From assembly GCA_011772425.1 (NCBI GenBank), contig WVZO01000590.1, forward strand, positions 393 to 50,683: 50,291 nucleotides of DNA. The letters are read 5' to 3'. Below the pieces are notes generated by a model, which saw only the letters and a program-made list of their open reading frames with translations, had not been told where the DNA came from and ran no database searches. Below are positions 10,422-47,238 of this stretch, piece after piece. Each line of letters starts with the position of its first letter. Position 1 is the stretch's first letter. The translations under genes were made by a program, and so were the position numbers. This DNA comes from Candidatus Aminicenantota bacterium (lineage in GTDB: Bacteria > Acidobacteriota > Aminicenantia > UBA2199).

Positions 10422-10480
10422 TTTTTGAGCGTTAACTATCAACCGACAACCATTGGTTAAGCTTGAAAAGAGGAGAACAC

Positions 10481-16400: not shown

Positions 16401-19400
16401 TGGCCAGGGATACGTCCGGTTACCTGGAGCGGTTAAAAAAAGAGAAAGTAACCGTGCTGAATCAAACGCCCACCGCCTTTTACCATCTTTGCCGTGAAGA
16501 GATGAAGCATGACAATAAAGCGCTGAAAATAAGATATGTTATCTTTGGCGGTGAGGAATTGCATCCTTTAAAACTAAAACCCTGGAGGAGCCGGTACCCG
16601 GGGACGAAACTGGTCAATATGTACGGAATCACCGAAACCACGGTGCATGTCACTTACAAAGAGATAACCGATAAAGAGATAGAACTTAACCAGGGAAATA
16701 TAGGTAAACCGATTCCCACTTCCGGCACATATATCATGGACGGCGAATCAAGACTCCTGCCCGTGGAAATAGCAGGAGAGATATGTGTAGGAGGGGCCGG
16801 GGTATCCAGGGGATACTTGAACCGGGTGGACTTAACAGCAGAGAAATTTATAGAGAATCCTTATAAAAAGGGAGAAAAGGTGTACCGCTCGGGAGACCTT
16901 GGTAAATTATCCGCAGATGGGGAATTGAGATACCTGGGAAGAATGGACCACCAGGTGCAGTTGAGGGGATTTCGCGTGGAATTGGGAGAAATAGAAAGCC
17001 AGTTATTGAGAATGGATGAAATAAAAGAAGCGGTTGTTATTGCCAGGGACAGCAGCGGCGCTGGCAGCGATGGTCATGAAGGTGACGGTAAATATTTGTG
17101 CGCCTACCTGGCAGCGGATGAAAAAATCGATCTTTCGACAGTAAGGAAGAAATTGTCCGGGGTACTTCCCGATTATATGATTCCCAATTATTTTGTTCCC
17201 CTGGATGAGATTCCCTTAACGGCTAATGGGAAAGTAAACAGGAAAGCATTGCCGGAGCCGACTGTGGGTCCGGCAGAAAAAGCGGTTGTACCACCCCGGG
17301 ATAAAAGGGAAGAGATGTTGGTAGAAATCTGGTCTGAAGTCCTGGGATTGGACGCTGGCCTTATCGGTATAAACAGCGATTTTTTTGAATTGGGAGGACA
17401 CTCCTTGAAGGCAGCCACAGTGGTTTCCAATATACAGAAAAAGTTCGATGTGAGAATACCCTTAGCAAAAATATTTGAAACCCCCACCATCCGGGGATTG
17501 GTCCAGCAACTGGAGAATGCGGTGGAAGATAAATACAGGGTAATCGAAACCGTTGAAGAAAAAGAGTATTATCCGCTCTCATCCGCCCAAAAGAGGCTGT
17601 ATATTCTCCGGCAAATGGAGGAGGAAAGCTCTGTCTATAATATCCCGGTGGTTTTATCCGCTGAAGGTTTTCTCCATAAAGAAAAAATAGAAAATAGTTT
17701 CAAGAAATTGATCCGGCGTCATGAAAGTCTGAGAACATCCTTTGAGATGATAGGGGGGGAACCGGTTCAGACGCTGCACAACGATGTTAATTTTGAAATC
17801 GAATATTATGAAGCGCCCGGCGCCCGGGGTGAAGAATCCTATGCCGGCATTATAACGGGTTTTATCCGGTCCTTTGATTTGATTAAAGCACCGCTGATGC
17901 GGGCGGGGTTAATAAAAATCGAAGAAGACAAACACCTATTGATGATGGACATTCATCATATCGCAGCGGACGGCTCTTCCATGGGGATATTGGTAAAAGA
18001 TTTTATGGCCCTGTACCGGGAGCAAGAATTGCCCCCTCTTCGCATCCAGTACAAAGAATATTGCCAATGGCAGAAAAATAAGAAAGATAAAGAAAACATA
18101 TCAAAACAAAGAGATTTCTGGGAAAAAGAATTTGCCGGAGACATACCAGTACTCAATCTTCCCTCAGATTTCACCAGGCCGGCGGTACAGCGCTTTGAGG
18201 GTGATACCGTAAATTTTGAGTTAGCCCCGGAAGAAACAAAAAAATTAAAGGATTTTACCAACGCCAGTGATTCCACATTGAATATGGTATTGATTGCCCT
18301 GTTAAATGTATTCCTGGCAAAATTAAGCGGGCAGGAAAACATCATTATCGGCATACCGACGGCTGGCCGCCGGCATGCGGACCTGCAGCAGATAATCGGT
18401 ATATTTGTCAATACATTGGCATTCATGAATTTCCCCAAAAGTGAGAAGACATTTGAAGAATTTCTCCGGGAAGTCAAAGAAAGAACGCTCAATGTTTTTG
18501 AAAACCAGGAATATCCCTTTGAAGACCTGGTGGACCATCTTTCCCTGGATAGGGATATCAGCCGGAATCCTCTATTTGATGTGATGCTTACATTACAGGT
18601 AATGGATATACCGGAGATAAAGATACCAGGTTTGCAGTTGAAACCCTATAACTGGAATTCCAATATCGCTAAATTTGATCTTACCTTATACGCTGTGGAA
18701 ATCGCTGCAAAACTGTTTTTTTCATTTGAATACAGTACCAACCTGTTTAAAGCAGATACCATAATACGGTTTGCCAACTATTTCAAAAAAATAGTATTGG
18801 ATGTACTTAAAGAGCCGGTTAAGAAGTTGTCGGAAATTGAGATGATTACAGAAGAAGAAAAGAGTAAAATACTATATGATTTCAATAAAACAGCAGTTGA
18901 ATTTCCCAATGATAAAACGATTCACCACCTATTTGGCCTGCAAGTGGAGAAAGCGCCGCATCATATCGCAGCGGTATTCCAGGAGACGTATTTAACTTAC
19001 AGGGAACTGGGAAAAAAAGCCGATCAATTGGCAAAAGCTGTCAGGCAAAAGGGTGTAATAGCGGATACAGTGGTGGGAATATTGGTGGAACCATCTTTAG
19101 AGATGATAATAGGTATTATGGGAATATTAAAGGCAGGTGGGGCGTATTTGCCGATTCCCCCCGAATATCCTCCGGAAAGAATAACATATATGCTCGAGGA
19201 CAGCGGTTCTTGCCTGGTGCTTACCAGGAGCAAGCTTGGTAAAATTTTGCAGAAAAAATGGGAAATTGTCGAGTTGGAAAACCATAATCATTGGATTGCT
19301 AAAGGAGAGGATTTAAACGAGGTCAACCGCTCGGATGATCTTGCCTATGTGATTTATACATCGGGTTCCACGGGGAGACCCAAAGGGGTTATGATTGAGC

Positions 19401-21973
19401 ACAGGGCGTTATGTAATTTGTGCCATTGGCATAACCGGTTTTTTGAGGTTACATCTGCCGATAGGGCGTTAAAATATGCCGGGTTCGGTTTTGACGCTTC
19501 AGTTTGGGAAATTTTTCCCTATTTAATTGTCGGGGCAGCTATTTACATTGTCGAGGATGAAATAAAATTGGATATGGTTCGGTTGAATGATTATTTTGAA
19601 ACCAACAAAATAACCATTGGCTTTTTACCCACCCACATATGCGAACAATTTATGCAGTCTGACAGCCATTCTTTAAGGATTTTGTTGACAGGGGGAGATA
19701 AATTAAATAGTTGGACAAAAAAAGGTTACCGGTTGGTAAATAACTATGGGCCCACTGAAAATACCGTGGTAAGCACCAGTTTTGTTGTAACTGGGTATTT
19801 CGCTAATATCCCCATTGGTAAACCGATATTTAATACTCAGATCTATATTTTAAACAATAACGGTAAACTTCAACCGCCAGGGATTCCCGGGGAATTATGT
19901 GTATCAGGAGCCAGTACAGCAAGGGGTTATTTAAATCAAATGGAATTAACAGGGGAGAAATTTACCGCCAGCTCCTTTGCCGCTGGAGAACGACTGTACT
20001 GGACAGGGGACCTGGCAAAATGGCTGCCGGACGGGAATATCGAGTTTCTTGGCAGGGTCGATCAGCAGGTAAAGGTAAGGGGTTTCAGGATAGAGCCCGG
20101 TGAAGTTGAAAATCACTTGTTAAAATGTAATGGAGTAAAAGAAGCCGTTGTTATTCCCTTTGGCTGTGGGGACGATACGCGTCTTTGTGCATACATCGTA
20201 ACGGGAAAAAAAAGTGAAATGGATCTATCTCGATTGCGGGATACCCTCTCTAAAACCTTGCCTGCTTCCATGATACCGGCTTATTTTATGGAGGTGGACC
20301 ATATTCCCCTGACACCCAATGGGAAAATAGATCGGAAGGCGCTGCCGGTACCGGAAACAGGTGGAGACGATACAGCACCGCGAAATGAAGTAGAAGAGAA
20401 ATTGGCTGAAATCTGGAGGGACGTACTTCGCCTGGAAAAGGGCATGATAGGTATCGATGCTAATTTTTTTGGGTTGGGGGGAGACTCATTAAAGGCCGCC
20501 GTCGTGGTATCGTTGGTACATAAAACCCTTAACCTCAAGATGCCCCTGACCGAACTATTTAAAAAACCCACTATCCGGGAATTGTCAAAATACATCAACG
20601 AATTGACCAGAGACGAATATACTTCTATAAAACCGGTGGAAAAGAAAGAATACTATCCCCAATCGTCTGCGCAGAAGAGCATATATGTCACGCAGCAGCT
20701 AAATAAAAAAAGTATAACCTACAACCTGCCTATCGTTTTTACATTGGCAGGAGAGCTGGATAGGGAAAAACTGGAGGAAACCTTCGCTAAGTTGATAAAG
20801 AGACATGAAAGCCTCAGGACCAGTTTTGGAATTATAGATGAGGAACCGCTCCAGGCGATCCATGATGAAGTAGAATTTAAAATTGAATATGATGAAGCGT
20901 CACCTCTCCGGTTGGAACGGGTCATACAGGATTTTGTCAAACCCTTTGCCCTGGAACGGGCGCCGCTGTTGAATGCTGCGTTGATAAAAGTAGAAGAAAG
21001 AAAACATGTAATGGTAGTAAACATGCATCATATAGTCACCGACGGGGCCTCGATAGAGGTGTTTGTGAAGGATTTTATGGCCTTGTATGAGGGAAAAGAG
21101 TTACCGCCGTTAAGCGTCCATTACAAAGAATACACGGAGTGGCAAAGCAGGGAAAAACAAAAACAATCAATCAAAAAACAAGGAGAGTATTGGAGGAAGG
21201 AATTTGAAGGGGAAATACCGGTTTTAAATTTACCTACAGATTATCCGAGGCCTGCAGTCCGAAGTTTTGAGGGCAGCACCCTGGACTTTGAGATAGGTCC
21301 CCTGGAGACAGGGGCATTAAAAAACCTGGCATTGGAGGAAAAGGCCACGTTGTTTATTGTCCTGCTGACCATATACACGATATTGTTATCAAAGTTGAGT
21401 GGCCAGGAGGATATTGTGGTGGGTACAGTTATAGCCGGGCGTAAGCATGTGGATTTGAAAATGATTATCGGGATGTTTGTCAATACACTTGCACTTAGAA
21501 ACTATCCAGGTGGGGAGAAGACATTTATCGGGTTTTTAAAGGAAGTGAAAGAAAGGGTATTGAAGGCTTTTGAGAACCAGGATTATCCCTGCGAAGATAT
21601 AATCGATGTATTGGAATTTAAAAAAGATATGGGCCGCTTTCCCCTATATAATGCCGCTTTTGGATTACAAAACCTTGAATTCCCTGGACTTCAAATACCC
21701 GGGTTAACGCTGAAACCCTATGAGATTGAAAATAAAACATCAAAGTTTGATCTGTCATTAGCCGCATTGGAAAAAGAAGGAAAACTGTCATTACTTTTTG
21801 AATACAGCACCAGGCTGTTCAAAAAGAGCACAATAAAGGGATTTATAAAATATTTTAAAGAAATGGTGTCCACTGTGATAAAAAATAGACATATTCAATT
21901 GAAGGACATCAAAATCTCTCATGAGTTATTTGAGCAAAAGTTAGATATTCCCACTATAGATTTTAAATTCTGA
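10481..21973 (+). CDS. NRPS2: half-C, then three modules with a tandem C-C pair
   Basis: This synthetase of 3830 residues has the order half-C (1-255, C-terminal lobe only, no HHxxxDG), A1 (265-770), T1 (Ser804), C1 (859-1290, His990-His991...Asp995), C2 (1314-1740, His1447-His1448...Asp1452), A2 (1754-2270), T2 (Ser2308), C3 (2361-2790, His2492-His2493), A3 (2807-3300), T3 (Ser3336 in GGDS) and C4 (3390-3815, His3516-His3517). By-eye codes aligned to GrsA are A1 DVEDIGSVCK (acidic pocket, possibly Orn/Lys-like, weak), A2 DFWNIGMVHK (the classic Thr code) and A3 DAWFLGNVVK (a classic Leu code). C1 and C2 are adjacent with no carrier between them. C2 is divergent and begins FTPTQRDLHLD. I chose the ATG at 10481 with AGGAG at 10471-10475 over an upstream TTG at 10463. 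The tail is TIDFKF. Confidence 0.93.
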   Translation: MVTRKYSFETAAIVAQNIKERDYWLNKLAGDWEKTTFPSSFQKSNLKDTKREPIKFQLTGQLFSRLVKLSNNSDNRLFMVLLAGLAVLINKYTGNEDIIVGTSICKQDDDVELVNTVLTLRNQLEKNMTFKELLISVKQTYSEAAHNQDYPCEALIYNLNLPDSENDFPLFDIAILLGNIHEEKYIRFTNPDILFSFFRWDEMIEGVLEYNPSLYEKALIERIITHYLHLLRTSVNNVNFKISELDVLPEEEKWELIHDFNSAKTEYPKDKVIHQLFEEQARKTPDNIALVCKDSEFTYKQLNEEANRVARVLRAKDVGADVIVGLILAPSIEMITAIFGILKAGGGYLPINPDYPGERINWILADSNLKLLISHSRFADNFEFKGELIDIDSWETYKRESSNLEISSDSEHLAYIVYTSGSTGKPKGVMVRHRNVITYLYAFYRKIEIAPGTVMLQQASYMFDVFVEEIYAVLLKGGCVAIPERFEIVDVRLLFEFIAKHNVTMVDCSPLLLNELNKLDKIKGVHTFISGGDVLKKEYIDNLLKIGSVYNSYGPAETTVCVTYYKCSFEDPANIPIGKPLANYNVYILDKNNRVLPPGVSGELCVSGDSVTRGYLNRPGLTGEMFIENPFSRGERLYKTGDLARWRFDGNIEFSGRIDQQVKIRGYRIELGEVENQLLNINGIEAAVVITREREAHDRYLCAYLVSDTKLKVTPLREFLQKRLPDYMIPSYFVQIDSIPFTANGKIDRKALPDHDHKIETGEDFAAPGDDVEKALAVIWSEVLGIEKDKVSINDNFFLSGGHSLAATILVSRIHRSFNVRIPFSVIFETPTIKGLAEYVKVAKKDKYAPIEAAEEQEHYPLSHGQQRLWFVSQLEQGSEVYNMAGTLVVEGELNVEAVKGAFDILLDRHESLRTTFFSLNGEPRQKIHNHAAMDIERIDLSQAGNQKESMCRLSIEEAHAPFDLGKCPLLRAKILKLSELKHLFMLTMHHIIGDGVSITILFDEYQMLYRAFCKGEGNPFPPLKLQYRDYVRWERGFLTGEKLNQLKLFWNEHFGGQIKLLNLPIDKPRSKARTFNGERISFRMDEELTAMSYGLVEKYNITVYIFFLTIFNMFLAKICQQEDITVVSGTAGREHDDLENIVGIFVRGHGIKNHVSPGQTFADFLKAVTARSLEARENSFYPFEMMINDYSGGSGERNVVNVHFNLFSLGSAKPGETRDHTANASALVESEFYLAKDDFSLEIVEDSPGLDFNFEYNTDLISRKKARLLVAWFKNIAREIICYPGKEINWYHLSTGRERELYEYLDIPEKEMECVYPFTPTQRDLHLDCLLNPEGKAHRLIYYNVFPGFLDIESWKEIMTRIYELYPILKAKLVSSGDDLYLGIRKNVDIHLDYIDLTGENLCENDIETRMKELVLTETHNLNREPVRHYLVKISAAVFINLISAHHIIFDGLSGKIVFEKFHELYNKLEKCNDEPVGHEVYLNYHQQDMGRFDTTAVKRYWRKKFSDIQKLKSAGKPGSGGGFVINKSVVNRDHMANIHLYCKENGISVPRYFRSLFGWLIRLYCAVDGDFVIREIIDGRDEFTKDIVGCFYQTVPMVFAGDVFQGEKKIADYFQYVRTQRKELGANRYISIFLQNQLIEEEDIIFFYNYSTFFQLDIADNCRYLVKIVNNSKTGKVDFPGKEIHLRAGNTAQGFQLELSYNEGVFNGDGFLERLLHVSGQIVEGAQYMRDIDFVTEKEKSELIRLSSMGVHEYPEEKNLCQFFADQVEKAPDQTAVVFEDRGLTYGELDKQSNRLAYLLQVKGVRPGAIAAIMAGRSLETIIGILGIIKAGGTYLPIDPDYPEERIRYMLADSNAGVLLSEVGELGKLSEGTEVVKLNELREEHPTHLTHPARPAHLCYIIYTSGTTGKPKGVLIEHRNLVRLFFNDKFQFDFNSSDIWSMFHSPCFDFSVWEMYGALLFGGKLIVISKMLARDTSGYLERLKKEKVTVLNQTPTAFYHLCREEMKHDNKALKIRYVIFGGEELHPLKLKPWRSRYPGTKLVNMYGITETTVHVTYKEITDKEIELNQGNIGKPIPTSGTYIMDGESRLLPVEIAGEICVGGAGVSRGYLNRVDLTAEKFIENPYKKGEKVYRSGDLGKLSADGELRYLGRMDHQVQLRGFRVELGEIESQLLRMDEIKEAVVIARDSSGAGSDGHEGDGKYLCAYLAADEKIDLSTVRKKLSGVLPDYMIPNYFVPLDEIPLTANGKVNRKALPEPTVGPAEKAVVPPRDKREEMLVEIWSEVLGLDAGLIGINSDFFELGGHSLKAATVVSNIQKKFDVRIPLAKIFETPTIRGLVQQLENAVEDKYRVIETVEEKEYYPLSSAQKRLYILRQMEEESSVYNIPVVLSAEGFLHKEKIENSFKKLIRRHESLRTSFEMIGGEPVQTLHNDVNFEIEYYEAPGARGEESYAGIITGFIRSFDLIKAPLMRAGLIKIEEDKHLLMMDIHHIAADGSSMGILVKDFMALYREQELPPLRIQYKEYCQWQKNKKDKENISKQRDFWEKEFAGDIPVLNLPSDFTRPAVQRFEGDTVNFELAPEETKKLKDFTNASDSTLNMVLIALLNVFLAKLSGQENIIIGIPTAGRRHADLQQIIGIFVNTLAFMNFPKSEKTFEEFLREVKERTLNVFENQEYPFEDLVDHLSLDRDISRNPLFDVMLTLQVMDIPEIKIPGLQLKPYNWNSNIAKFDLTLYAVEIAAKLFFSFEYSTNLFKADTIIRFANYFKKIVLDVLKEPVKKLSEIEMITEEEKSKILYDFNKTAVEFPNDKTIHHLFGLQVEKAPHHIAAVFQETYLTYRELGKKADQLAKAVRQKGVIADTVVGILVEPSLEMIIGIMGILKAGGAYLPIPPEYPPERITYMLEDSGSCLVLTRSKLGKILQKKWEIVELENHNHWIAKGEDLNEVNRSDDLAYVIYTSGSTGRPKGVMIEHRALCNLCHWHNRFFEVTSADRALKYAGFGFDASVWEIFPYLIVGAAIYIVEDEIKLDMVRLNDYFETNKITIGFLPTHICEQFMQSDSHSLRILLTGGDKLNSWTKKGYRLVNNYGPTENTVVSTSFVVTGYFANIPIGKPIFNTQIYILNNNGKLQPPGIPGELCVSGASTARGYLNQMELTGEKFTASSFAAGERLYWTGDLAKWLPDGNIEFLGRVDQQVKVRGFRIEPGEVENHLLKCNGVKEAVVIPFGCGDDTRLCAYIVTGKKSEMDLSRLRDTLSKTLPASMIPAYFMEVDHIPLTPNGKIDRKALPVPETGGDDTAPRNEVEEKLAEIWRDVLRLEKGMIGIDANFFGLGGDSLKAAVVVSLVHKTLNLKMPLTELFKKPTIRELSKYINELTRDEYTSIKPVEKKEYYPQSSAQKSIYVTQQLNKKSITYNLPIVFTLAGELDREKLEETFAKLIKRHESLRTSFGIIDEEPLQAIHDEVEFKIEYDEASPLRLERVIQDFVKPFALERAPLLNAALIKVEERKHVMVVNMHHIVTDGASIEVFVKDFMALYEGKELPPLSVHYKEYTEWQSREKQKQSIKKQGEYWRKEFEGEIPVLNLPTDYPRPAVRSFEGSTLDFEIGPLETGALKNLALEEKATLFIVLLTIYTILLSKLSGQEDIVVGTVIAGRKHVDLKMIIGMFVNTLALRNYPGGEKTFIGFLKEVKERVLKAFENQDYPCEDIIDVLEFKKDMGRFPLYNAAFGLQNLEFPGLQIPGLTLKPYEIENKTSKFDLSLAALEKEGKLSLLFEYSTRLFKKSTIKGFIKYFKEMVSTVIKNRHIQLKDIKISHELFEQKLDIPTIDFKF
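16063..16182 (+). repeat. simple-sequence inverted repeat in the A2-A3 linker of NRPS2 adenylation domain 2
   Basis: GTGAGT/GGTGAG-like units near 16065-16100 are mirrored by CTCACC-like units near 16140-16182. Both are within the loop between adenylation core motifs A2 and A3. The reading frame is kept. The left flank is nearly identical to the same loop in NRPS5 (43045-43125). Confidence 0.6.
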
Positions 21974-22005: not shown

Positions 22006-25000
22006 ATGAGAAATAAAACCGATATGGAAGAACTTGTTATTGCAGCTCATCAACATATCAAAGAGAAAAATTACTGGTTAAGTAAACTGTCAGGAGAACT
22101 GGTAAAGAGTTGTTTTCTCAGCGATTTCCCGAAGACAGGGAAAAATGAACGCCGGCCGGAGGTTGTGAGATTTAAATTTTCCCCGGATATTTGTTCAAGG
22201 CTAATGAGCTTAAGCAGTGGAAGCGATCATGCATTAAATATTGTCCTGATGGCCGGGTTAATTTCGGTACTTAACAAATATACTGGCAGTACCGATATCA
22301 TTGTGGGAGCTCCCATTTATAAGCAGGAGATCGCAAGGGAGTTTGTCAATACGGTCCTGGTATTAAGAAACCAGTTTGATGAGAATATAACCTTTAAGGA
22401 GCTGCTTTTACTTGTAAAACAAACCGTCCTTGAAGCAGCGGATAACTACAGCTATCCCATTGAAATATTAATAGAGGAGTTGAAAATACCGGTTTCTGAG
22501 AATGCCGATTTCCCTTTATTTGATATTGTGGTTTTACTGGAAAATATTCATGATAGAAACTATATCCGGCATATAAATACCAATATGATCTTCTCTTTTT
22601 TGAGGAGCGATGAATCGATTGAAGGAATAGTGGAATTTAATTCTTTACTTTATAGGAAAATAACCATAGAAGGGATTAGCGAACATATTAAAAATCTTTT
22701 CCAGGAAGTCCTATTTAATGTAGATATGCGGGTGTCTGAAATCGATTTACTTTCGGAAGATGAAAAACAAAAACTTCTTTATGAATTTAACGACACCAAA
22801 AGGGAATATCCTGCCCACAAGACCATTCATGAGCTATTCGCGGAACAGGTGGAAAAGACACCGGGTAAAACAGCGGTGGTGTTTGAAGGAGAAGAACTGA
22901 CCTATCGGGATTTGAATGAAAGGGCCAATAAGTTGGCGAGAATATTAAGAAAGAAAGGAGTAAAACCGGGTCATATCGTACCGATAATTGTAGAGCATTC
23001 GCTTGAGATGATCGTTGGAATACTCAGCATATTAAAAGCAGGGGGTACTTACCTGCCCATAGACGAGGAGAACCCGAAAAATCGGGTTGTTTCCATGCTT
23101 AACGATTGTCAGGCGTCGATTTTATTAACCAAAAGCAGTATTCTTAAAAACCATTCTTTTACGAGTTTACAGGGGCTTCAATTAACCGGTGTGCAGCCCA
23201 CGCGAACGGCCCCCAGGCCCCAGATTCTTGACCTGGATGGTTTACCCATGGTTGATCGGTCAATGATCGATTTTGACCGGTATAGTCAATATATCAGTGT
23301 AGCACCGGTTAAGAGCAGTATTTCAATTCAAGGGACACGGGGCTGCCCCTATCTTTGTGCTTACTGTCACAAAATCTGGCCCAAAAGACATGTATTTCGT
23401 TCAGCAGAAAATATCTTTGCAGAACTGGAATTTTATTATAAGCTGGGAGTCAAGCGATTCGCAATGATTGATGATATTTTTAACCTGGATATTGAAAATA
23501 GTTCGCGATTTTTTAAATTGATTATCGATAATGGAATAGAGATGCAGCTTTTTTTCCCTGCCGGTCTGCGCGGCGATTTATTGAGCGAAAACTATATTGA
23601 TTTGATGATTGAAGCCGGGACCAGGGGATTTCCACTGGCATTGGAGACCGGTTCACCAAGATTGCAGAAATTGATTAAAAAGAATCTGAACCTGGACAAA
23701 CTCCATAGAAACCTTGAGTATATTTGCGAAAAATATCCCAATGTATTTTTAGAGCTTCAGACCATGCATGGGTTCCCCACCGAAACCGAAGAAGAAGCAA
23801 TGATGACCCTGGATTTCATCAAGAGCTTGAAATGGCTGCATTTCCCTTATGTTCATATTTTGAAAATTTACCCCAATACCGATATGGAAAAACTGGCAAT
23901 TGAAAATGGAGTCTCTGCGGAAGCGATCCGGCAGTCGCAAGAATTGGCCTGGCATGAATTGCCGGAAACGCTGCCCTTTGATAAGAGCTTTACCCTGCAA
24001 TATCAGGCTGATTTTTTTAATAACTATTTCCTTGCAAAAGAACGATTATTACACGTATTACCTTATCAAATGAAAATTATGACCGAAGATGAGGTGGTAC
24101 AAAAATACAATAGTTTCTTGCCCGTTGATATTGAAAGCTTTGATGACTTATCGAAATTTGCCGGGATATCAAAGGATGAGTTAGAGGGGCAGAAGTTCCT
24201 GGATGAGAAATCCGTAACGGTTACCGATTTTAACAGGAAAATAAAAAAATATTATCCCACGAAGGAATCGTCGGCGGATGCGTTGAGAATTTTGTTACTG
24301 GATTTATCGCAGTTTTTTAGTGCTGAGAGTCATATACTTTACGATGTGGTTGAGCAGCCCCTTGGGCTGATGTACCTGGCGACCTGCTTGAATCAACGGT
24401 TTGGTAACAAAGTCAAAATTGAGATCGCCAAATCGAGAATTAATTTTGACAATTATGAAGAGTTAAAAAAACTCCTGGAGGAGTTCAAACCCGATATCAT
24501 GGGAATTCGTTCGCTGACGTTTTATAAAGATTTTTTCCATAAGACCGTTGAAATGATCCGGCAGTGGACAACGGACATTCCTATTATTGCAGGTGGACCT
24601 TATGCAACCAGTCTTTACTCCACGGTATTGCAGGACAGGAATATTGACCTGGTGGTACTGGGAGAAGGAGAAATGACTACCTGTGAAATAGTCGAGAAAA
24701 TCATTGAAAATGGCAAACGAATACCAGGAGAAGCGGTTTTAAATGAAATTGCCGGGATTGCCTTTGTCCCCAATAAATCGGATTCACAGGAAAAGTTTTC
24801 CCGGCAAATCATTATCCTGGATGAACTGGCGGAAATGACGGCCCTGGAACCCGGTGAGAACCCGGGACATGTTAATGAACCCCGGGATCTGGCTTATGTT
24901 GTATATACCTCCGGTTCCACGGGCCAATCCAAAGGGGTGATGGTGGAACACAAATCCTTAAATAACCTGTGCCATTGGCATAATGCCTATTATTCGGTAA

Positions 25001-27600
25001 CATCGGCGGATAGAGCCGCAAAGTATGCAGGATTCGGATTTGACGCCTCCGCATGGGAAATTTTTCCCTATCTAATTACCGGGGCAAGTTTATACATTAT
25101 AGATGATAAAATAAAATTAGACCTGATCCGGCTGAATGATTATTTTGAAACCAATAAAATAACCATCGCTTTTTTACCCACCCAGATCGCCGAACAATTT
25201 ATGAAACTTGACAATCAGTCATTAAGGGCATTATTAACCGGTGGAGATAAATTAAAGGATTATGTAAAACGGGATTATTGCCTGGTTAATAACTATGGAC
25301 CTACAGAGAATACAGTGGTGACCACCAGTTTCGTGGTTGATGAAAAATACAATAATATCCCCATAGGTAAACCCATATACAATAACCAGGTATATATCCT
25401 GGATAAGCACCTTAAATTGCAGCCCCTGGGAGTTCCGGGGGAATTATGTATCAGCGGTGCCAGTCTTGCCAGGGGTTATTTAAGAAAAGAAACGTTGACA
25501 ATGGAAAAATTTGTGGCCAACCCCTTTATTGAGGGAGGGCGTCTGTATCGAACCGGGGACCTGGCCAGGTGGCTTCATGATGGGAATATAGAATTTTTAG
25601 GAAGAATCGATAGTCAGACAAAAATTAGGGGGTTCAGGATAGAGCTGGGTGAGATAGAAAACCATTTATTGAGCCATGATGAGATAAAGGAGGCTGTTGT
25701 CATCGCCGGCGAAGGGTTTGAAACCGGTGCCAAAGATAGATATCTTTGTGCCTATTTTGTTTCTAATAAGGAACTGACTGGAACCGACTTGAGAGAGTAC
25801 TTATCCCGCCAATTGCCCGGTTATATGATTCCCTCGTATTTTGTATCGTTAGACAGGATACCTGTAACTCCCAATGGAAAGGTGGACAGGAAGGCACTGC
25901 CATTACCTCAATTGGGTGGTGAAGACAGGGTGGTGGTGGTCCCCAGGAATCGTTTAGAGGAAAAATTGCTCGAGATATGGTCCGAAGTACTCGAGGTAGA
26001 AAAAGCCAAAATAGGGATAGACACCAACTTCTTCGCGTTGGGGGGTCATTCGTTAAAGGCAACGATAATGGCCGCTAAAGTACATAAAGAATTTGCCGCA
26101 AAAATTGAATTGGCTGAGATGCTGGAAATACCTACTATAAGGGGACTGGCAGAATATATAAGTAGAAAGGATATGGAAAAATACACACCGCTGGAACCGG
26201 TGGAGAAGAAAGAATATTATTATTTATCCTCTGCACAAGAACGATTATATTTTCTCCAGCAGGTCGATGTAACAAGTACCGCGTATAATATGCCGCAGGT
26301 GGGAATCCTGGAAGGCCAGGTGGATAAGGACAAAATAGAGAAGACATTTGGGAAATTGATACAGAGGCATGAAATGTTGAGAACATCGTTTGAAATAATC
26401 GATGAGATTCCATTCCAGAGAATACACGATGAAGTCGAGTTTTGCCTGGAGTATAAGGACCTGGTAAAGGAGGCCGGGAACCGGGAGCCAACGGTTAGAG
26501 AAGAAAAAATTATAAAAGGATTTATCAAGCCTTTTGATCTGGGTAGAACTCCGCTGCTTCGGGTTGGCTTATTCAAAACCAGGGAAGCCGAATATATACT
26601 AATAATGGACATCCATCATATCATCCTCGACTTTTCTTCTTACAGTATATTGATGGATGATTTTATTGCCCTGTGCGAGGGTAAAGAGTTACCGGGATTA
26701 ACATTACAGTATAAAGATTTCTGCCAGTGGCAAAACTGCCGACTGCAAACAGAAGAAATGAGGCGGCAAGAAGAGTATTGGCTAAACGAGTTTAAAACCG
26801 AGGTTCCCCAATTGAATTTGCCTACAGACTATGAAAGGCCCGAATTAAAAAGCATTGAGGGTAACCATATCCGGTTTGAAATAGGTAAAGAGATAACCCA
26901 ACGATTAAAATCCCTGGCACTGGAAGAGGGGGTAACCTTGTATATGCTGTTGGCTGCCCTATACAACGTACTGCTCTGGAAATTAAGTGGAAGCGGGGAT
27001 ATCCTGGTGGGAGTTGTGATTGCAGGTCGCCGCCCCCCGGGCCTCCAGCAGGTAATTGGTCTATTTTTAAATACTCTTGCCCACAGGAGCCATCCTTCCG
27101 GCGAGAAAAAATTTAATGATTTTTTAAGGGAAGTAAAAGAAAAAATGCTGGAGGCTTTTGAAAACCAGGATTATCCATTTTGTGAACTGGTGAAAAAAGT
27201 CGTGTCAAAACGGGACCCCAGCCGAAACACATTGCTGGATATAGGGCTCAGTTTACAAGACAATATCGGAGTGATAGAAAATAGAGCGCTTTCGCAGCAA
27301 ACCGGATTTGTACTGAAACCCTATGATTATGAAAATAAGATTGCCAAAGGCGACATGATATTCAATGGGGTGGATACCGGCGACAATTTACTTATCACGG
27401 TGGAATACTCTACCAAACTCTTTAAGGAAGAAACAATTCATAGCTATATCAAATATTTTAAGGCCATTGCCTTCGCTGTTTTGGAAACTCCTGGCAAAAA
27501 ACTGGAAGAAATAGAAGTCCACTCAAAAGAAGAAACGGAAAAAATTGTTTCGATAATTCGGGAAAAAAGCAAAGAGGTAAACGTTGATTTTGATATTTAG
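22006..27600 (+). CDS. NRPS3: half-C, adenylation domain interrupted by radical SAM + B12 domains, T, C
   Basis: This synthetase of 1864 residues has a half-C (1-250), then an A domain split in two. The first A part (262-380) contains A2 core LKAGGTYLPID (343-353). A radical SAM domain (about 400-640, cluster Cys447-x3-Cys451-x2-Cys454) and its C-terminal extension (to about 740) come next, then a cobalamin-binding-like domain (about 756-915, with PLGLMYLA, IIAGGPYAT and GEGE). The A domain resumes with A3 core VYTSGSTGQSK (966-976) and runs to about 1310. A carrier (Ser1349) and a C domain (1402-1850) follow. The distance from A2 to A3 is about 610 residues instead of about 80. The A code reads DAWFLGNVVK (Leu), and all later A motifs look intact. 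The C domain motif is HHIILDF (1537-1543), with Phe replacing the usual Gly. The tail is VDFDI. SD GGAGT lies at 21996-22000. Methyltransferase-interrupted A domains are known; I know of no characterised radical SAM version. Confidence 0.92.
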   Translation: MRNKTDMEELVIAAHQHIKEKNYWLSKLSGELVKSCFLSDFPKTGKNERRPEVVRFKFSPDICSRLMSLSSGSDHALNIVLMAGLISVLNKYTGSTDIIVGAPIYKQEIAREFVNTVLVLRNQFDENITFKELLLLVKQTVLEAADNYSYPIEILIEELKIPVSENADFPLFDIVVLLENIHDRNYIRHINTNMIFSFLRSDESIEGIVEFNSLLYRKITIEGISEHIKNLFQEVLFNVDMRVSEIDLLSEDEKQKLLYEFNDTKREYPAHKTIHELFAEQVEKTPGKTAVVFEGEELTYRDLNERANKLARILRKKGVKPGHIVPIIVEHSLEMIVGILSILKAGGTYLPIDEENPKNRVVSMLNDCQASILLTKSSILKNHSFTSLQGLQLTGVQPTRTAPRPQILDLDGLPMVDRSMIDFDRYSQYISVAPVKSSISIQGTRGCPYLCAYCHKIWPKRHVFRSAENIFAELEFYYKLGVKRFAMIDDIFNLDIENSSRFFKLIIDNGIEMQLFFPAGLRGDLLSENYIDLMIEAGTRGFPLALETGSPRLQKLIKKNLNLDKLHRNLEYICEKYPNVFLELQTMHGFPTETEEEAMMTLDFIKSLKWLHFPYVHILKIYPNTDMEKLAIENGVSAEAIRQSQELAWHELPETLPFDKSFTLQYQADFFNNYFLAKERLLHVLPYQMKIMTEDEVVQKYNSFLPVDIESFDDLSKFAGISKDELEGQKFLDEKSVTVTDFNRKIKKYYPTKESSADALRILLLDLSQFFSAESHILYDVVEQPLGLMYLATCLNQRFGNKVKIEIAKSRINFDNYEELKKLLEEFKPDIMGIRSLTFYKDFFHKTVEMIRQWTTDIPIIAGGPYATSLYSTVLQDRNIDLVVLGEGEMTTCEIVEKIIENGKRIPGEAVLNEIAGIAFVPNKSDSQEKFSRQIIILDELAEMTALEPGENPGHVNEPRDLAYVVYTSGSTGQSKGVMVEHKSLNNLCHWHNAYYSVTSADRAAKYAGFGFDASAWEIFPYLITGASLYIIDDKIKLDLIRLNDYFETNKITIAFLPTQIAEQFMKLDNQSLRALLTGGDKLKDYVKRDYCLVNNYGPTENTVVTTSFVVDEKYNNIPIGKPIYNNQVYILDKHLKLQPLGVPGELCISGASLARGYLRKETLTMEKFVANPFIEGGRLYRTGDLARWLHDGNIEFLGRIDSQTKIRGFRIELGEIENHLLSHDEIKEAVVIAGEGFETGAKDRYLCAYFVSNKELTGTDLREYLSRQLPGYMIPSYFVSLDRIPVTPNGKVDRKALPLPQLGGEDRVVVVPRNRLEEKLLEIWSEVLEVEKAKIGIDTNFFALGGHSLKATIMAAKVHKEFAAKIELAEMLEIPTIRGLAEYISRKDMEKYTPLEPVEKKEYYYLSSAQERLYFLQQVDVTSTAYNMPQVGILEGQVDKDKIEKTFGKLIQRHEMLRTSFEIIDEIPFQRIHDEVEFCLEYKDLVKEAGNREPTVREEKIIKGFIKPFDLGRTPLLRVGLFKTREAEYILIMDIHHIILDFSSYSILMDDFIALCEGKELPGLTLQYKDFCQWQNCRLQTEEMRRQEEYWLNEFKTEVPQLNLPTDYERPELKSIEGNHIRFEIGKEITQRLKSLALEEGVTLYMLLAALYNVLLWKLSGSGDILVGVVIAGRRPPGLQQVIGLFLNTLAHRSHPSGEKKFNDFLREVKEKMLEAFENQDYPFCELVKKVVSKRDPSRNTLLDIGLSLQDNIGVIENRALSQQTGFVLKPYDYENKIAKGDMIFNGVDTGDNLLITVEYSTKLFKEETIHSYIKYFKAIAFAVLETPGKKLEEIEVHSKEETEKIVSIIREKSKEVNVDFDI
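23150..24800 (+). other. in-frame radical SAM plus cobalamin-binding insert within the NRPS3 adenylation domain
   Basis: This marks the approximate extent of the foreign module (residues about 382-931). Its order is radical SAM first and B12-binding second, the reverse of stand-alone class B enzymes. The radical SAM part opens with ILDLDGLP, the sequence that normally links a B12 domain to its radical SAM domain. The B12 part ends IAGIAFV, where that linker would normally begin. No canonical DxHxxG cobalamin motif is seen, which is common in radical SAM B12 domains. Confidence 0.8.
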
Positions 27601-27666: not shown

Positions 27667-29367
27667 ATGAAAGAAAATATCGATTGCCTATTTATCGGTT
27701 ACAATGAAATGAGTTTCCCGGAATATGAGAAAGCGATTCGCAGCACCGGAACCAATTCCAGTGCTTACCGCGATTTGAATTTGAGCTTTCTAACTTATAA
27801 CAACCAACCTTTCACGTTTGCGGGAATGTTTAATTTAATCGGCGGCAGTGGTAACGATTCAAAACGTCCCCTTAAAAATCTAAGTATAAGTGAAACTTTT
27901 AGTGCAGCGATTGCCTATCTTGGTACTTATTTAAGCCGAAGGGGGTATACTTTCGAATATGTGAATGCCTTTCAAGATGAGAAAGAAATATTGATAGAAA
28001 TGTTGACAGGAAAAAATATCCTGGCCATTGCAATAACAACCACTTTTTATTTTTCCAGTCTTCCCATTCTTGAAATTATGGATTTTGTCCGAAAGTATAA
28101 TAATGATGCCAAAATCATAATCGGCGGCCCGTTTGTTTCCAACCAGGTACGTACGAAAGAACCCGAAAACCTGATGTATTTGTTTAATTCGCTGGGGGCG
28201 GATTTTTATGTGAATAGTGCCCAAGGTGAAGCCGCACTGGTCAAAATCATCGATTCTCTGAAAAGTCATGTGAATCCAACGGGGATAAACAATATTTATT
28301 ATAAACTCCCCCGGGGATATGCAGCAACCCCGGTTGAGAGAGAAGACAATAAAATATCCCAAAATATGGTAGATTGGAGTCTGTTTGGTCATCGAGTGGG
28401 TGAATATGCACTCCTGCGGACATCAATATCCTGCCCCTTCTCCTGTGCTTTTTGCGCCTATCCGGCTCACGCCGGCAAATATCAGACAGCCGATGTGGAA
28501 GCCGTGGAAAAAGAATTAAATACCCTGGCTAAAATAAAATCGGTAAAGAAAGTGAATTTTATTGATGATACCTTTAACGTTCCGGTGGATAGATTTAAAA
28601 ATACGCTCAGGATGTTTATAAAAAACAAATATAACTTTAATTGGCACTCATTCTTCAGATGCCAATTTGCAGACAGGGAGATGGTTGAATTAATGAAAGA
28701 GAGCGGCTGTGAAGGCGTTTTCCTGGGAATTGAATCGGGAAATGATCAAATTCTTAAAAACATGAACAAAGTTGCCGCCGTTGAAAAATACCTTAAAGGG
28801 ATTGAGTTGCTAAAGGAATATGAAATCATTACGTTCGGTAGTTTTATAATCGGGTTTCCCGGGGAGACTGATGAAACGGTAAAAGATACGATTCAATTGA
28901 TAGAAGAAAGTGGACTTGACTTTTACCGAACGCAGCCCTGGTATTGTGACCCTATTTCGCCAATATATAAGCAAAAAGATAAGTATAAAATTAAAGGGGA
29001 AGGTGTGGTGTGGAGTCATGCCACCATGAATTCCGCAAGAACGTGTGACTTGATAGAAGAATTATTTTTATCGGTTAAAAAATCTGTTTGGCTTCCCTTT
29101 TATGACGGTGATTACGGCAATCTTTTTCACTTATTGGCCAGGGGAATAACGTTGGCGCAAGTTAAAGATCTTTTTAAGAGTTTTAATAATGGTATAAAAG
29201 AAAAATTATTGGCTCCTTCAGCAAAAGAGGTCAGCCCTGACGTTATGATGCAGTTCCACCGGTCTTTAGCTGGTTCCCCCGGTTTTGAATCGGAGGGTGA
29301 AAATGTCATTGGCACCAGTGGCACCCGGGAGCAGGAGAATGATTTAGTCATTGATTTTGACTTGTGA
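27667..29367 (+). CDS. PhpK-like B12-binding radical SAM enzyme (copy 1)
   Basis: This is a 566-residue cobalamin-binding radical SAM protein. The opening DCLFIGYNE, the central B12-fold block (ITTTFYFS...IIGGPFVS, with GAD and QGEA) and the cluster Cys256-x3-Cys260-x2-Cys263 resemble the PhpK family of radical SAM methyltransferases, whose founding member methylates phosphorus in phosphinothricin biosynthesis. Here no phosphonate genes are present, so C-methylation or another alkyl transfer on the peptide is more likely (inference). Later motifs are DDTFNVP, GIESGN and IGFPGETDE. It is strongly similar to the gene at 47239 along its whole length; the three cluster cysteines fall at identical residue numbers. 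The tail is VIDFDL. The gene lies 66 bp after NRPS3 and starts the tailoring cassette 27667-34268. The upstream ribosome site is only moderate (AAGGAAGAG). Confidence 0.85.
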   Translation: MKENIDCLFIGYNEMSFPEYEKAIRSTGTNSSAYRDLNLSFLTYNNQPFTFAGMFNLIGGSGNDSKRPLKNLSISETFSAAIAYLGTYLSRRGYTFEYVNAFQDEKEILIEMLTGKNILAIAITTTFYFSSLPILEIMDFVRKYNNDAKIIIGGPFVSNQVRTKEPENLMYLFNSLGADFYVNSAQGEAALVKIIDSLKSHVNPTGINNIYYKLPRGYAATPVEREDNKISQNMVDWSLFGHRVGEYALLRTSISCPFSCAFCAYPAHAGKYQTADVEAVEKELNTLAKIKSVKKVNFIDDTFNVPVDRFKNTLRMFIKNKYNFNWHSFFRCQFADREMVELMKESGCEGVFLGIESGNDQILKNMNKVAAVEKYLKGIELLKEYEIITFGSFIIGFPGETDETVKDTIQLIEESGLDFYRTQPWYCDPISPIYKQKDKYKIKGEGVVWSHATMNSARTCDLIEELFLSVKKSVWLPFYDGDYGNLFHLLARGITLAQVKDLFKSFNNGIKEKLLAPSAKEVSPDVMMQFHRSLAGSPGFESEGENVIGTSGTREQENDLVIDFDL

Positions 29368-29409: not shown

Positions 29410-31233
29410 GTGAACCCCGATAACAAATTTTATGTAAAGCTGATTCACTGCGGCAATCGAAATATTACCAACGGGCAAAATAAGAACCGGGAAAACCTCT
29501 TTTTTATACCCATGGGACTTTTTCCCCTGGCCAATATGTTAAAGCAGAAGGGATTTGATGTTGAAATTATTCATTTCGATCTTGAACCGGGGACAGGGAT
29601 AGAAGAAATCCTGGACGTTAATACATTGGATGCAGTGGGCTTTGACTGCCATTGGATAGAGCAAAGTCAAGCCGTTTTAGATGCCGGGGCACTGATAAAG
29701 AAGATCAAACCCGGCGTCTTTATTTTCCTGGGGGGCTTCAGTGCCAGTTTTTTTTCCAGGGAAATCTTAGAGAATTATTCTCAAGTTGATGCCGTTATAA
29801 GAGGGGATGGAGAAATTCCCATCGTTGAGCTTTGCCGTATTTTAAATGAAAAAAAGCAGGATCCCATAAACGCCGGGGGCGATCATATTTCGTTGAAACA
29901 TGTGCCCAACCTGGTCTGGAAAGAAGCCCCGGGAACGATTATATTTAATGAATTCTCATATATCGGCACGGAAGCAGAACTATCGCAATTGGATTTTGCC
30001 GACCTCCCGCTGTTAAGAAATTGGGAATATTATAGAGAAATTTGCCGCTATTGGACAAAATTTGAGCCCATTGATTCGTTTCCTCTCTTTTTTTTGGAGA
30101 TTGGCCGCGGATGTAGTTATAATTGTTCCTTTTGCGGTGGGAGTGCCCGGGCGCAAATATGCATTAATAACCGAAAAAATCAGGTGGTACGTTCCGTCGA
30201 TTCGGTAATTTCCACGATAGAAAAAGCTGTCTCTTATGGATATCGATGTTTTTTAACTTCCTTTAATTTTGATGGCAGCGACCAGTGGTACATTAACTTG
30301 TTCAGGACCCTGGAAGAAAGAAAGTTCAAGATTAGTTTTGGTTATGAAAGTTGGGGTCTCCCTTCCCCGTCGTTAATAAATGCCATATCGGCTGGGTGTG
30401 AGCATGCCGTGATTACCATATCGCCAGACAGTGCGGATCTTGATTTGCGAAAGAAAAACAAAGACCCACGGTTGTTTTATACCAATGCCCGGTTGGAGGA
30501 GTGCCTGGATTATATCGCTGCTAAAAATAATTTGAAAGTCCAGCTTTATTTTGTTTATTTCCTGCCCTATGAAACCGAAAAGACGATTTTTGCGACAATG
30601 GATTATATAACAGCGCTTTATCTCAACTATTCACATTTTACAGAAATCATTTACATGCAGCTGTGTACAGACCCCGGGTCTTTGTTATTCTTAAATCCCC
30701 ACAGGTATGACGTTGATATTGCCGTTGGCGATTTTAGTGATTATATCAGCGCATTAAATAAGAATGACGGGCCTGAAACCACAACCACCTCCCTTCCACT
30801 ATTATCGAAACCAATCACCATGACCGATGGAGAAGCAGCCCACCTGGTTTATAAAATAAACGTATTTAAGCGATTGTTCTCGTTTCCGCGTTCCCTGCTG
30901 CGATTGCTGAACGAAACCGGGAAACCAACGATCATATCCGCTTATCTTAAAAGGAATGACTTTTTAATGGTAGGAAAGCGTGAGATTACACCGGAGGTGA
31001 TTAAGACGGTTTTATTCAATATTTGTAATGAAAACCTGGAAGCGGACAGCGACATATTCGACTTGATCGAACGTGAATACCAGGAGACAGGCCATAATCG
31101 CTTGAATTCAATCTCAGCCGGTTCAAAAGGAGCCCGGGAGATAACGATCATTTCCGAAAGCGAAACCAAAGAGATGCTTTCCAGCATTAGAAAAGATGAA
31201 GAAGGTATTTCGATTGAATTTGATATTTACTAG
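29410..31233 (+). CDS. B12-binding radical SAM enzyme, second type (copy 1)
   Basis: This protein has 607 residues. An N-terminal cobalamin-binding-like domain (about 8-150: FIPMGLFPLANMLKQKGFDV, FLGGFSAS, RGDGEIP) is followed by a radical SAM domain with Cys235-x3-Cys239-x2-Cys242 in GRGCSYNCSFCGG. The C-terminal part (about 400-590) is not recognised. The protein is a full-length paralogue of the gene at 32442 and belongs to a different subfamily from the PhpK-like pair. Its function is unknown; tailoring of the NRPS product is inferred from the operon. The start is GTG at 29410 with GGAG at 29399-29402 (7-base spacing). The tail is SIEFDIY, the tag with one extra residue. The next gene follows after 12 bp, and that gene's Shine-Dalgarno overlaps this stop codon. 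Confidence 0.82.
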   Translation: MNPDNKFYVKLIHCGNRNITNGQNKNRENLFFIPMGLFPLANMLKQKGFDVEIIHFDLEPGTGIEEILDVNTLDAVGFDCHWIEQSQAVLDAGALIKKIKPGVFIFLGGFSASFFSREILENYSQVDAVIRGDGEIPIVELCRILNEKKQDPINAGGDHISLKHVPNLVWKEAPGTIIFNEFSYIGTEAELSQLDFADLPLLRNWEYYREICRYWTKFEPIDSFPLFFLEIGRGCSYNCSFCGGSARAQICINNRKNQVVRSVDSVISTIEKAVSYGYRCFLTSFNFDGSDQWYINLFRTLEERKFKISFGYESWGLPSPSLINAISAGCEHAVITISPDSADLDLRKKNKDPRLFYTNARLEECLDYIAAKNNLKVQLYFVYFLPYETEKTIFATMDYITALYLNYSHFTEIIYMQLCTDPGSLLFLNPHRYDVDIAVGDFSDYISALNKNDGPETTTTSLPLLSKPITMTDGEAAHLVYKINVFKRLFSFPRSLLRLLNETGKPTIISAYLKRNDFLMVGKREITPEVIKTVLFNICNENLEADSDIFDLIEREYQETGHNRLNSISAGSKGAREITIISESETKEMLSSIRKDEEGISIEFDIY

Positions 31234-31245
31234 GAGGTACTTGAT

Positions 31246-32406
31246 ATGAAATACTTCAGTGTACCCGCGGATTTTAAGACAGAGACTATCGATCGATATG
31301 AAATACTCAATAATACCTACGACGATTCCAGGGTGATTGAAAGTTATGGGAATATAACCGTAAGAAACGGGTTTGAATCGGGGCGGTCGGTGGAGCAATT
31401 GCCCGAAGTGGATTGGTACGAACTGGAAAATTATATAGCCTACTCAAAGCAGAAGAATATAGATTTTAATTATACTATCAACTCATCCTACATGCAAAAC
31501 AAGGAATTTACTGAGAACGGGATTTTGAAAATCAAAACCTTTTTAAAAAGGCTTTATGAGATAGGCGTAGATTCTCTTACCGTTGCTTTACCCTCCTTAA
31601 TCGAGTTGATTAAATCCACAAACTACAATTTTAAAATTAAAGCCTCTGTAATTTGCCAGATAACAAATGCCAATAAAGCCATGAGCTTCAAGAAAATGGG
31701 CGCAGCGCGAATGGTGGTGGACGAATCTATGAACAGGAACTTTAAAGTCCTGGAAAGAATAAAAAATGTTTTTGGAGATTATGTGGAGATCATTGTAAAC
31801 CCCATATGTTTTAAAGATTGCATATACCGTATGTTCCATTACAACCAGATTTCAGGCGATTCAATCGAGGTTTCAAGTCAGGCCAGCATTGAATATTATC
31901 CGCATCGGTGCGTATTGAAAAGATATGAGAATACCGGTAATTTATTGAAACTCAATTGGGTTAGACCGGAAGATATCAACTATTATAGTAATATTGGCAT
32001 ATGCCATTTTAAATTACAGGGAAGGCATACCGTATTAAAAGGAGACCCGGTTAGAGCCGTTGAATGTTATGCCAAAGAATCTTATGATGGAGACTTAATG
32101 GAGTTGTTGGATCTCTTTGATCCAACCACCAGTTTCAGGGTATCTATTGATAATAAAAAGTTAGATGGATTTATAAAACCGTATTATGAAAACGAAAATT
32201 TTTGTAAAAATGATTGTTCCGGCTGCAATTACTGTGAGAGTTTTGCCCAAAAGTGTATTGATCATGAAAAAGCAAATGAGGTGATCCAATTGGCCGTTCA
32301 ATTTTATAACGATTATGACAGGTTCAAAGAAATGATTGCCGCGATAAATCCTGCAAAAGTTGACAATTTATCTGAAGAGAAAATGGATATTGGATTTGAT
32401 TTATAG
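31246..32406 (+). CDS. U32-family (UbiU/UbiV-like) Fe-S protein, copy 1
   Basis: This 386-residue protein has the U32 core pattern, including WVRPED...YY...GI..FKLQGR (238-260). Cysteines at 137, 188, 192 and 222 are conserved in the second copy and are candidate ligands of the 4Fe-4S cluster known in UbiU/UbiV. A cysteine-rich tail, C320-x3-C324-x2-C327-x2-C330-x6-C337, then CIDHEKA, suggests a further metal or Fe-S site. U32 relatives UbiU/UbiV and RlhA carry out hydroxylations, in UbiU/UbiV without oxygen. That makes an O2-independent hydroxylase acting on an NRPS-bound residue a reasonable hypothesis; a peptidase role is not excluded. The ribosome site AGGAGGT (31232-31238) overlaps the stop codon of the preceding gene. 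The tail is DIGFDL. It is flanked on both sides by the paralogous second-type radical SAM genes. Confidence 0.8.
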   Translation: MKYFSVPADFKTETIDRYEILNNTYDDSRVIESYGNITVRNGFESGRSVEQLPEVDWYELENYIAYSKQKNIDFNYTINSSYMQNKEFTENGILKIKTFLKRLYEIGVDSLTVALPSLIELIKSTNYNFKIKASVICQITNANKAMSFKKMGAARMVVDESMNRNFKVLERIKNVFGDYVEIIVNPICFKDCIYRMFHYNQISGDSIEVSSQASIEYYPHRCVLKRYENTGNLLKLNWVRPEDINYYSNIGICHFKLQGRHTVLKGDPVRAVECYAKESYDGDLMELLDLFDPTTSFRVSIDNKKLDGFIKPYYENENFCKNDCSGCNYCESFAQKCIDHEKANEVIQLAVQFYNDYDRFKEMIAAINPAKVDNLSEEKMDIGFDL

Positions 32407-47195: not shown

Positions 47196-47238
47196 AGTGA
47201 AAAAAACGATAAATGGCGGGAAATCCAGGGAGATCGTG

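Follow-up and report, generated by a model that had tools for sequence, protein, structure and literature searches.

Radical SAM and B12-binding domains, in permuted order, inside an NRPS adenylation domain of Candidatus Aminicenantota

Can a radical SAM (RS) enzyme with a B12-binding domain be housed inside the adenylation (A) domain of an NRPS and, if so, what could it do there? The question is raised by NRPS3, an open frame in the 50,291-nucleotide stretch of Candidatus Aminicenantota DNA that was analysed here (the window), in whose A domain a first-pass annotation had seen an in-frame insert with both kinds of domain. The two domains of the insert taken together are called RS-B12 below.

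The split A domain of NRPS3

Pfam matches AMP-binding on NRPS3 in two stretches, which flank Radical_SAM (residues 443–605, 67.3 bits against a Pfam cut-off of 29.5) and B12-binding (784–895, 47.3 bits, cut-off 32.1), and these are followed by PP-binding and Condensation (Table 1). Both inserted domains score well over their cut-offs, so that a chance match is no concern. By profile, and counting from the Met, the RS domain takes residues 404–708 and the B12-binding domain 754–923, the RS profile having been built in this analysis from 19 insert copies. The first condensation (C) domain is probably partial, to judge from its length. The GC content is 41.4% in the insert and 38.4 and 42.4% in its flanks.

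The A2 motif, LKAGGTYLPID, stands at residues 343–353, as first annotated, and A3 is found as LAYVVYTSGSTG at residues 962–973 rather than at 966–976. The A2–A3 spacing is 613 residues, compared with a median of 66 for the own-genome A domains matched by our script (41 of 57 are below 120), which gives a net insert of about 547 residues, slightly more than the 540 first estimated. The complete CxxxCxxC motif and the B12-binding-like domain that the first pass reported are both there, and so are the core motifs on either side: besides A2 before the insert and A3 after it, A5, A7, A8 and A10 are all found C-terminal to it. Thus NRPS3 has what is looked for in an interrupted A domain, namely ordered core motifs that flank an embedded domain within one frame.

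Interrupted A domains had been invoked as precedents, but the two examples chosen, KtzH and TioS, are interrupted between a8 and a9, according to the review PMC11355689. In the same review, a2–a3 is listed as a known interruption site, occupied in TioN and MarQ by domains that methylate side-chain sulfur; embedded methylases are described as working after loading of the carrier (T) domain; and the embedded domains are M, Ox, KR and alike, kinds among which that of NRPS3 does not fall. NRPS3 shares with TioN and MarQ the a2–a3 site, a second catalytic domain in the loop and A core motifs on both sides of it. In contrast, the embedded domain of TioN, MarQ, KtzH and TioS is a class I methyltransferase, whereas that of NRPS3 is of RS plus B12 type and circularly permuted, and it differs from the known interrupted A domains also in its number, about 33 copies in one genome, and in the existence of forms with a decayed A shell. 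We found no description of RS-B12 inside an A domain in the open literature, a coverage that does not extend to the chief survey of such interruptions. Interrupted A domains are already known, and RS-B12 as the embedded enzyme is, provisionally, new.

Table 1. Features of NRPS3 and related features of the window (positions are those of the window; RS, radical SAM; B12, B12-binding; tail, acidic-aromatic C-terminal tail).
Feature	Position	Strand	Basis or remark
Standalone B12-RS protein, normal order	8703–10421	+	
NRPS2, three A domains without RS-B12 insert	10463–21973	+	third code DAWFLGNVV
NRPS3 open frame, 1864 aa: partial C – A (N part) – RS – B12 – A (C part) – T – C	22006–27600	+	open frame, Pfam
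N-terminal A part, A-profile positions 2–106; A2 at 23032–23064	22843–23157	+	profile
RS domain of insert, RS profile 1–305	23215–24129	+	Pfam, own profile; pLDDT >90 over most
CPYLCAYC, CxxxCxxC cluster motif, Cys447/451/454 (residues 447–454)	23344–23367	+	
Linker, usual RS C-terminus to usual B12 N-terminus	24130–24264	+	median offset 47 residues, 45 copies
B12-binding domain with PLG, GGPYAT and GEGE motifs	24265–24774	+	Pfam, profile
C-terminal A part, A3 to A10, code DAWFLGNVV	24799–25890	+	profile, alignment
Peptidyl carrier (T) domain, LGGHSL at 26038–26055	25960–26160	+	Pfam
Condensation domain of NRPS3	26209–27549	+	Pfam
Standalone B12-RS protein, normal order; tail VIDFDL	27667–29367	+	TIGR04479, 635.8 bits (cut-off 600)
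Standalone B12-RS protein, normal order	29410–31233	+	
Standalone B12-RS protein, normal order	32442–34268	+	Pfam Radical_SAM 28.2 bits, just below cut-off
Standalone B12-RS protein, normal order	47188–48936	+	TIGR04479, 607.9 bits (cut-off 600)
Tail-bearing proteins (B12-RS or U32-type)	8703–10421, 27667–29367, 29410–31233, 31246–32406, 32442–34268, 46032–47195, 47188–48936		
Tail-bearing NRPS ends	8679, 21973, 27600, 46017		

Recurrence and domain order of the insert

The insert is matched 34 times at E ≤ 1e-40 in the own genome, an assembly of 10.4 Mb and 768 contigs in which a search for 16S rRNA found none. These matches stand for about 33 copies, since a single copy on contig C741 is spread over two frames and accounts for two of them; 29 copies are full-length in the fetched loci. 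In the family, the insert is carried by 7 of 34 genomes, the own one among them, which belong to three genera and are the largest on the family list (4.7–10.4 Mb, versus at most 3.4 Mb for the rest). A search of the nearest relatives found it in 7 of 60 genomes, own counted, and a phylum-wide draw in 1 of 396, the own genome, the other six carriers being absent from that draw. The set of full copies used below (n = 45) is made up of the 29 own copies and 16 from the six other genomes. Their site is constant: the A profile breaks off at position 101–108 (41 copies) and restarts at 99–134 (37 copies).

The fragmentation of the assembly and its 6.86% contamination are what might suggest an assembly chimera. 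Since the insert recurs in frame, at one site, in separate assemblies of seven genomes and three genera, a chimera is ruled out, and we give the idea practically no weight. The proposal of the first-pass annotation to look for the same insert in the same loop of other A domains was thus fruitful, and the two dangers that it had foreseen, a chimera on the one hand and absence from relatives together with loss of the cluster cysteines on the other, did not materialize. Of the 45 full copies, 44 have an unaltered CxxxCxxC motif, and with three partial ones that hold the region the count is 47 of 48; the exception is a full own copy (G000:C47:25717-27531, L012), in which the first cluster cysteine is replaced by Tyr. 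Cys451 and Cys454 are among 47 aligned columns that are invariant over the 45 full copies. In the B12 part, GGPY and PLG are found in 47 of 47 rows and a GEGE-type motif in 44, the row count including two fragments, one of them the duplicate of a copy. For the 30 copies in which both A parts are intact, the median pairwise identity is 0.58 for the insert and 0.48 and 0.39 for the A parts.

In view of this conservation, we consider a relic or spacer devoid of catalytic activity very improbable. The loss of the first cluster cysteine in 1 of 45 full copies and the own copy that lies in two frames would fit a relic, but the three cysteines kept in 44 of 45, the 47 invariant columns and the higher conservation of the insert than of its host A domain do not.

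The insert is a circular permutation, with RS first and B12 second, a point that the first-pass annotation had not noticed. In ORFs with an A domain, all 61 RS hits stand before B12 (loci that overlap being counted repeatedly), whereas B12 precedes RS in the standalone relatives, counted in ORFs matched by both profiles: 78 of 78 named-locus hits among the best 80 matches of the genome-contig scan, 20 of 20 hits among the best 80 of the viral collection and 2 of 2 own-genome hits. No two-domain ORF with RS before B12 was found in the 160 loci that make up the best 80 of each of these two scans; in every one of them the best-segment identity is at most 39%, and an A-profile match is given by one ORF per scan set, in L109 (without RS in that ORF) and in L231. 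The order does not depend on our own models, because matches to curated profiles, although under their cut-offs, say the same. The insert aligns by its N-terminal part with the middle of ApyD (query 12–259 to profile 146–389) and a later stretch of TIGR04385 (35–269 to 163–400), and by its C-terminal part with the beginning of KedN5 (417–563 to 17–162) and of HpnR (416–544 to 21–149). The new termini lie in the usual B12-RS linker, and the old termini are bridged by a linker of 47 residues, the median RS-B12 offset of the 45 full copies (range 42–61).

The insert matches no NCBIfam radical SAM family at its cut-off, and is a member neither of the PhpK family (TIGR04479, 92.1 bits, cut-off 600) nor of the AprD4 family (NF033070, 61.9 bits, cut-off 500). 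Of the marks of class B radical SAM enzymes, it has the CxxxCxxC core (47 of 48 copies) and a putative cobalamin-binding Rossmann-type domain, but not the position of B12 N-terminal of RS. CysS, TokK and MgmA have B12 before RS. These three and TsrM share with the insert the RS core with CxxxCxxC and the B12-binding Rossmann-type domain, and all four are fold matches; they are separate proteins, however, whereas in NRPS3 RS stands before B12 and inside an A domain. B12 before RS is the order given for TsrM as well, in PMC8992657. We found no report of a circularly permuted cobalamin radical SAM enzyme in the open literature. The permutation is an example of an enzyme opened at an interdomain linker to suit a loop.

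Structure models were made of the insert from two alignments. With RS relatives only, the RS domain is mostly above 90 pLDDT and the B12 part below 50, the mean over the whole model being 67.8. The mixed-alignment model (overall pLDDT 66.4, pTM 0.71) gives the B12 part as an alpha/beta fold with block means of 49–86, and it is weak there because the tails of most of the 20 RS rows in the alignment lie in the B12 region. With these mean values of 67.8 and 66.4, the packing of B12 on RS is poorly modelled. Foldseek gave 58 matches at E ≤ 0.001, with AprD4 at the top and MiaB, TsrM, MgmA, TokK and CysS (rank 18) also present. Among solved structures, AprD4 also comes first in sequence comparison with the RS part (71.1 bits); it is a standalone protein with a different domain order, and its likeness to the insert concerns the RS part, in both sequence and fold.

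Host A domains and decayed shells

The nine specificity positions of the NRPS3 A domain read DAWFLGNVV on alignment, which we take to be a Leu code. The first-pass annotation had also read a Leu-type code, but the insert is not confined to Leu domains. Codes were read in fetched contigs, at nine positions, on an alignment from the motifs of the window; the list of own-genome A domains is partial, with 129 of 319 candidates scored. After removal of one double entry and one decayed shell from the 25 rows of the code table, 23 interrupted A domains are left, with nine types of code: DFWNIGMVH (6, presumably Thr), DGFFLGM/VVY (6, presumably Ile), DVQFVAHVV (4, presumably Pro), DAKDIGVVD (2, presumably Glu) and, once each, DAWFLGNVV (the window), DALWLGGTF (assumed Val), DLTKIGEVG (assumed Asn), DPWYIGTVN and VAWEVTADD. 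A Leu-specific function is ruled out by these nine codes. Eight of them are also found in own A domains without the RS-B12 insert.

In a tree of 92 A cores, the 23 interrupted ones are scattered among the uninterrupted, with some clustering. The tree requires 17 changes of state, at least nine of them forced by starred branches, compared with a mean of 20.6 after shuffling and 10 of 500 shuffles as low; it is a quick tree, in which one of the 23 is a double entry and methyltransferase-interrupted domains are scored as uninterrupted. Tree and codes are compatible with a history in which the insert was gained repeatedly or lost repeatedly, as well as with A cores recombining around it.

Over 33 copies, identities correlate at r 0.65 between the N- and C-terminal A parts and at 0.20 and 0.21 with the insert. 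An insert uncoupled from its host was nevertheless rejected, as this difference is an artefact of the decayed shells of relatives among the 33. In the 30 intact copies the correlations are 0.23 for N part and insert (p 0.013), 0.38 for insert and C part (p 0.001) and 0.36 for N and C parts (p 0.001). The coupling of insert and host is about as weak as that between the host's own two parts, and hence this test gives no sign of a moving cassette; what still supports one is the spread of the insert over codes and over the A-core tree. As for the residue, codes for beta-branched amino acids (Thr, Ile and Val on our assignments, a class chosen post hoc) are found in 13 of 23 interrupted and 13 of 70 uninterrupted own A domains (Fisher p 0.0008, with domains that are not independent). 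In relatives the figures are 1 of 12 and 1 of 19, or 2 of 12 with DFWNIGMIH taken for a Thr code. We take this as only a hint of a link between insert and beta-branched residues.

In some modules the host A domain has decayed. On the own contigs C47, C471 and C497, a complete A domain with code CVQYIAHVV is followed by a broken or nearly absent A shell around RS-B12 and then by T; in G003 (two modules), G013 (one) and G006 (one), a complete A domain with CVQYIAHVV or CVQFVAHVV is followed by RS-B12 without a resumed A domain and then by a T motif. The cluster cysteines are intact in all seven, from four genomes. An eighth copy without resumed A domain lies on contig C417 of G006 (L024). The seven may go back to one inherited event, and hence be one observation, as common descent is suggested by the CVQ-type code that they share. 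The RS-B12 core outlasts its A shell across three genera, which is, we think, the strongest sign of a tailoring domain in its own right, and its function may be independent of the surrounding A domain.

A few details of these codes are added for completeness. Cys takes the place of the usual Asp at the first code position of the A domain before the shell in L036, L042, L049 and L232–L235. A further CVQ code, partly read, is found in L036 without a visible shell.

The persistence of RS-B12 where the A shell decays, and the hosts of nine codes scattered over the A-core tree, could also mean that RS-B12 acts on the growing peptide or on residues of other modules, the A domain being a mere anchoring scaffold. 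We consider this unlikely, because in all seven decayed cases RS-B12 is still preceded by a complete A domain and followed by a T motif, as a cis-acting domain usually is.

Possible chemistry and the surroundings of the insert

The permuted order, the nine codes and the decayed shells together favour an autonomous in-line tailoring domain that would act on a carrier-bound residue. With moderate confidence, we think that the insert is a permuted class B-type radical SAM enzyme in the A2–A3 loop that C-methylates the carrier-bound residue before condensation. This account starts from computed features: domains, motifs, permutation, recurrence, constant site, spread over codes and survival of RS-B12. 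In such a mechanism, the A domain would activate the amino acid, which by its code is Leu in the case of NRPS3, and load it onto the T domain of its own module, and the carrier arm would deliver the residue to RS-B12. SAM and the [4Fe-4S] cluster would then generate a 5'-deoxyadenosyl radical that takes a hydrogen atom from a carbon, and methylcobalamin would donate the methyl group, so that the residue would be C-methylated ahead of condensation. The use of cobalamin, the carrier-bound state of the substrate, and the methylation and its position are presumed here, and the target could be in the own module or in one further on.

C-methylation is probably the chemistry of RS-B12. It is the first guess given the methylating precedents at a2–a3, the B12 domain, and CysS, a B12 radical SAM enzyme whose substrate is methylated while bound to a carrier protein (PMC8992657). 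It is also favoured by KedN5 and HpnR, C-methyltransferase profiles that match the B12 part under their cut-offs; against it, the nearest solved structure, AprD4, is a 1,2-diol dehydratase and no methyltransferase.

As this radical SAM diol dehydratase is the top solved match by both sequence and fold, the same in-line domain might perform another radical chemistry, such as epimerisation, dehydration or deoxygenation, or rearrangement; its B12-type domain might then be otherwise used or free of cobalamin. AprD4 itself has a B12-like domain and no cobalamin. Ring contraction and rearrangement are also known for B12 radical enzymes, and the fetched own loci hold few motifs like those of E domains (6 versus 104 C-like, with loose patterns and some overlapping loci). 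We regard another chemistry as rather doubtful, since the Pfam B12-binding match is over its cut-off, PLG and GGPY are kept throughout, and it is C-methyltransferase profiles that match the B12 part.

If C-methylation on the carrier is what RS-B12 does, it would give assembly lines a natural means of methylating selected residues at unactivated carbons; we know of no class I methyltransferase insert that methylates such carbons. Moreover, the natural set of intact and decayed hosts, together with the one loss of a cysteine, makes the interdependence of embedded domain and A domain directly testable. A wider reading, which we put forward as possible and tentative, is that RS-B12 is a portable plug-in of A domains of unlike specificity, always at A2–A3, that C-methylates a carbon shared by their residues and unactivated (Cbeta would fit) on the carrier. 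The A2–A3 loop would then be a general docking slot, as other domains occupy it too in the own genome, and the shell would be dispensable once the cassette works.

Among the other inserted domains observed, class I methyltransferase-like ones stand at A2–A3 of five own A domains (L063–L066; contigs C27, C675, C210 and C24 of G000, the own genome), the Pfam check covering a single copy from C27 and another from C24. At A2–A3 of another own A domain (L057, 9319–11205, minus strand, contig C702) the inserted domain is ThiF/E1-like (184.8 bits). A PP-loop, WbuX-like domain lies near A8–A9 in L057 (2645–9436, minus), L058 (3562–9591, minus) and L243 (1514–6889); the L057 copy, the one that was scored, gives 125.8 bits against a cut-off of 203.2. 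The A domains of L058 and L243 are doubly interrupted, with RS-B12 at A2–A3 and the WbuX-like domain near A8–A9, and the PP-loop appears degraded in both. In L244 (2–4876, minus) a gap resembles that near A8–A9. The ThiF-like domain on the same contig as the L057 WbuX-like copy brings sulfur chemistry to mind, as a thought.

Around NRPS3, the cluster of the window holds five standalone B12-RS proteins in normal order. Three of them have one Pfam domain below its cut-off, B12-binding in the proteins at 27667–29367 (28.5 bits, cut-off 32.1) and 47188–48936 (32.0 bits, just below). NRPS subunits, standalone B12-RS proteins and U32-type proteins have in common a short acidic-aromatic C-terminal tail (VDFDI, VIDFDL, SDFQF), which the NRPS at 34280–41374 does not carry. 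With a loose pattern, widened after the tails had been seen, the tail is found in the own genome in 14 of 16 standalone RS proteins, in 21 of 54 NRPS ORFs and in 12 of 114 other ORFs, some of these 12 being RS and U32 proteins of the window with weak scores; in the named loci of the best 80 matches it is found in 3 of 117 RS proteins and 28 of 1204 other ORFs. It is possibly a docking tag that recruits tailoring enzymes.

Also in the window, the ORF at 5581–8679 encodes an NRPS that lacks an A domain and consists of one T and two C domains, and a C25 (gingipain-like) peptidase with propeptide, PKD and GEVED adjoins the cluster at 175–3297 (minus). Outside it, a genome from a marine metagenome has seven consecutive CxxxCxxC ORFs (L072, 1–11324), most of them with a B12-type GG motif, and several are among the best-scoring standalone relatives in the matches listed.
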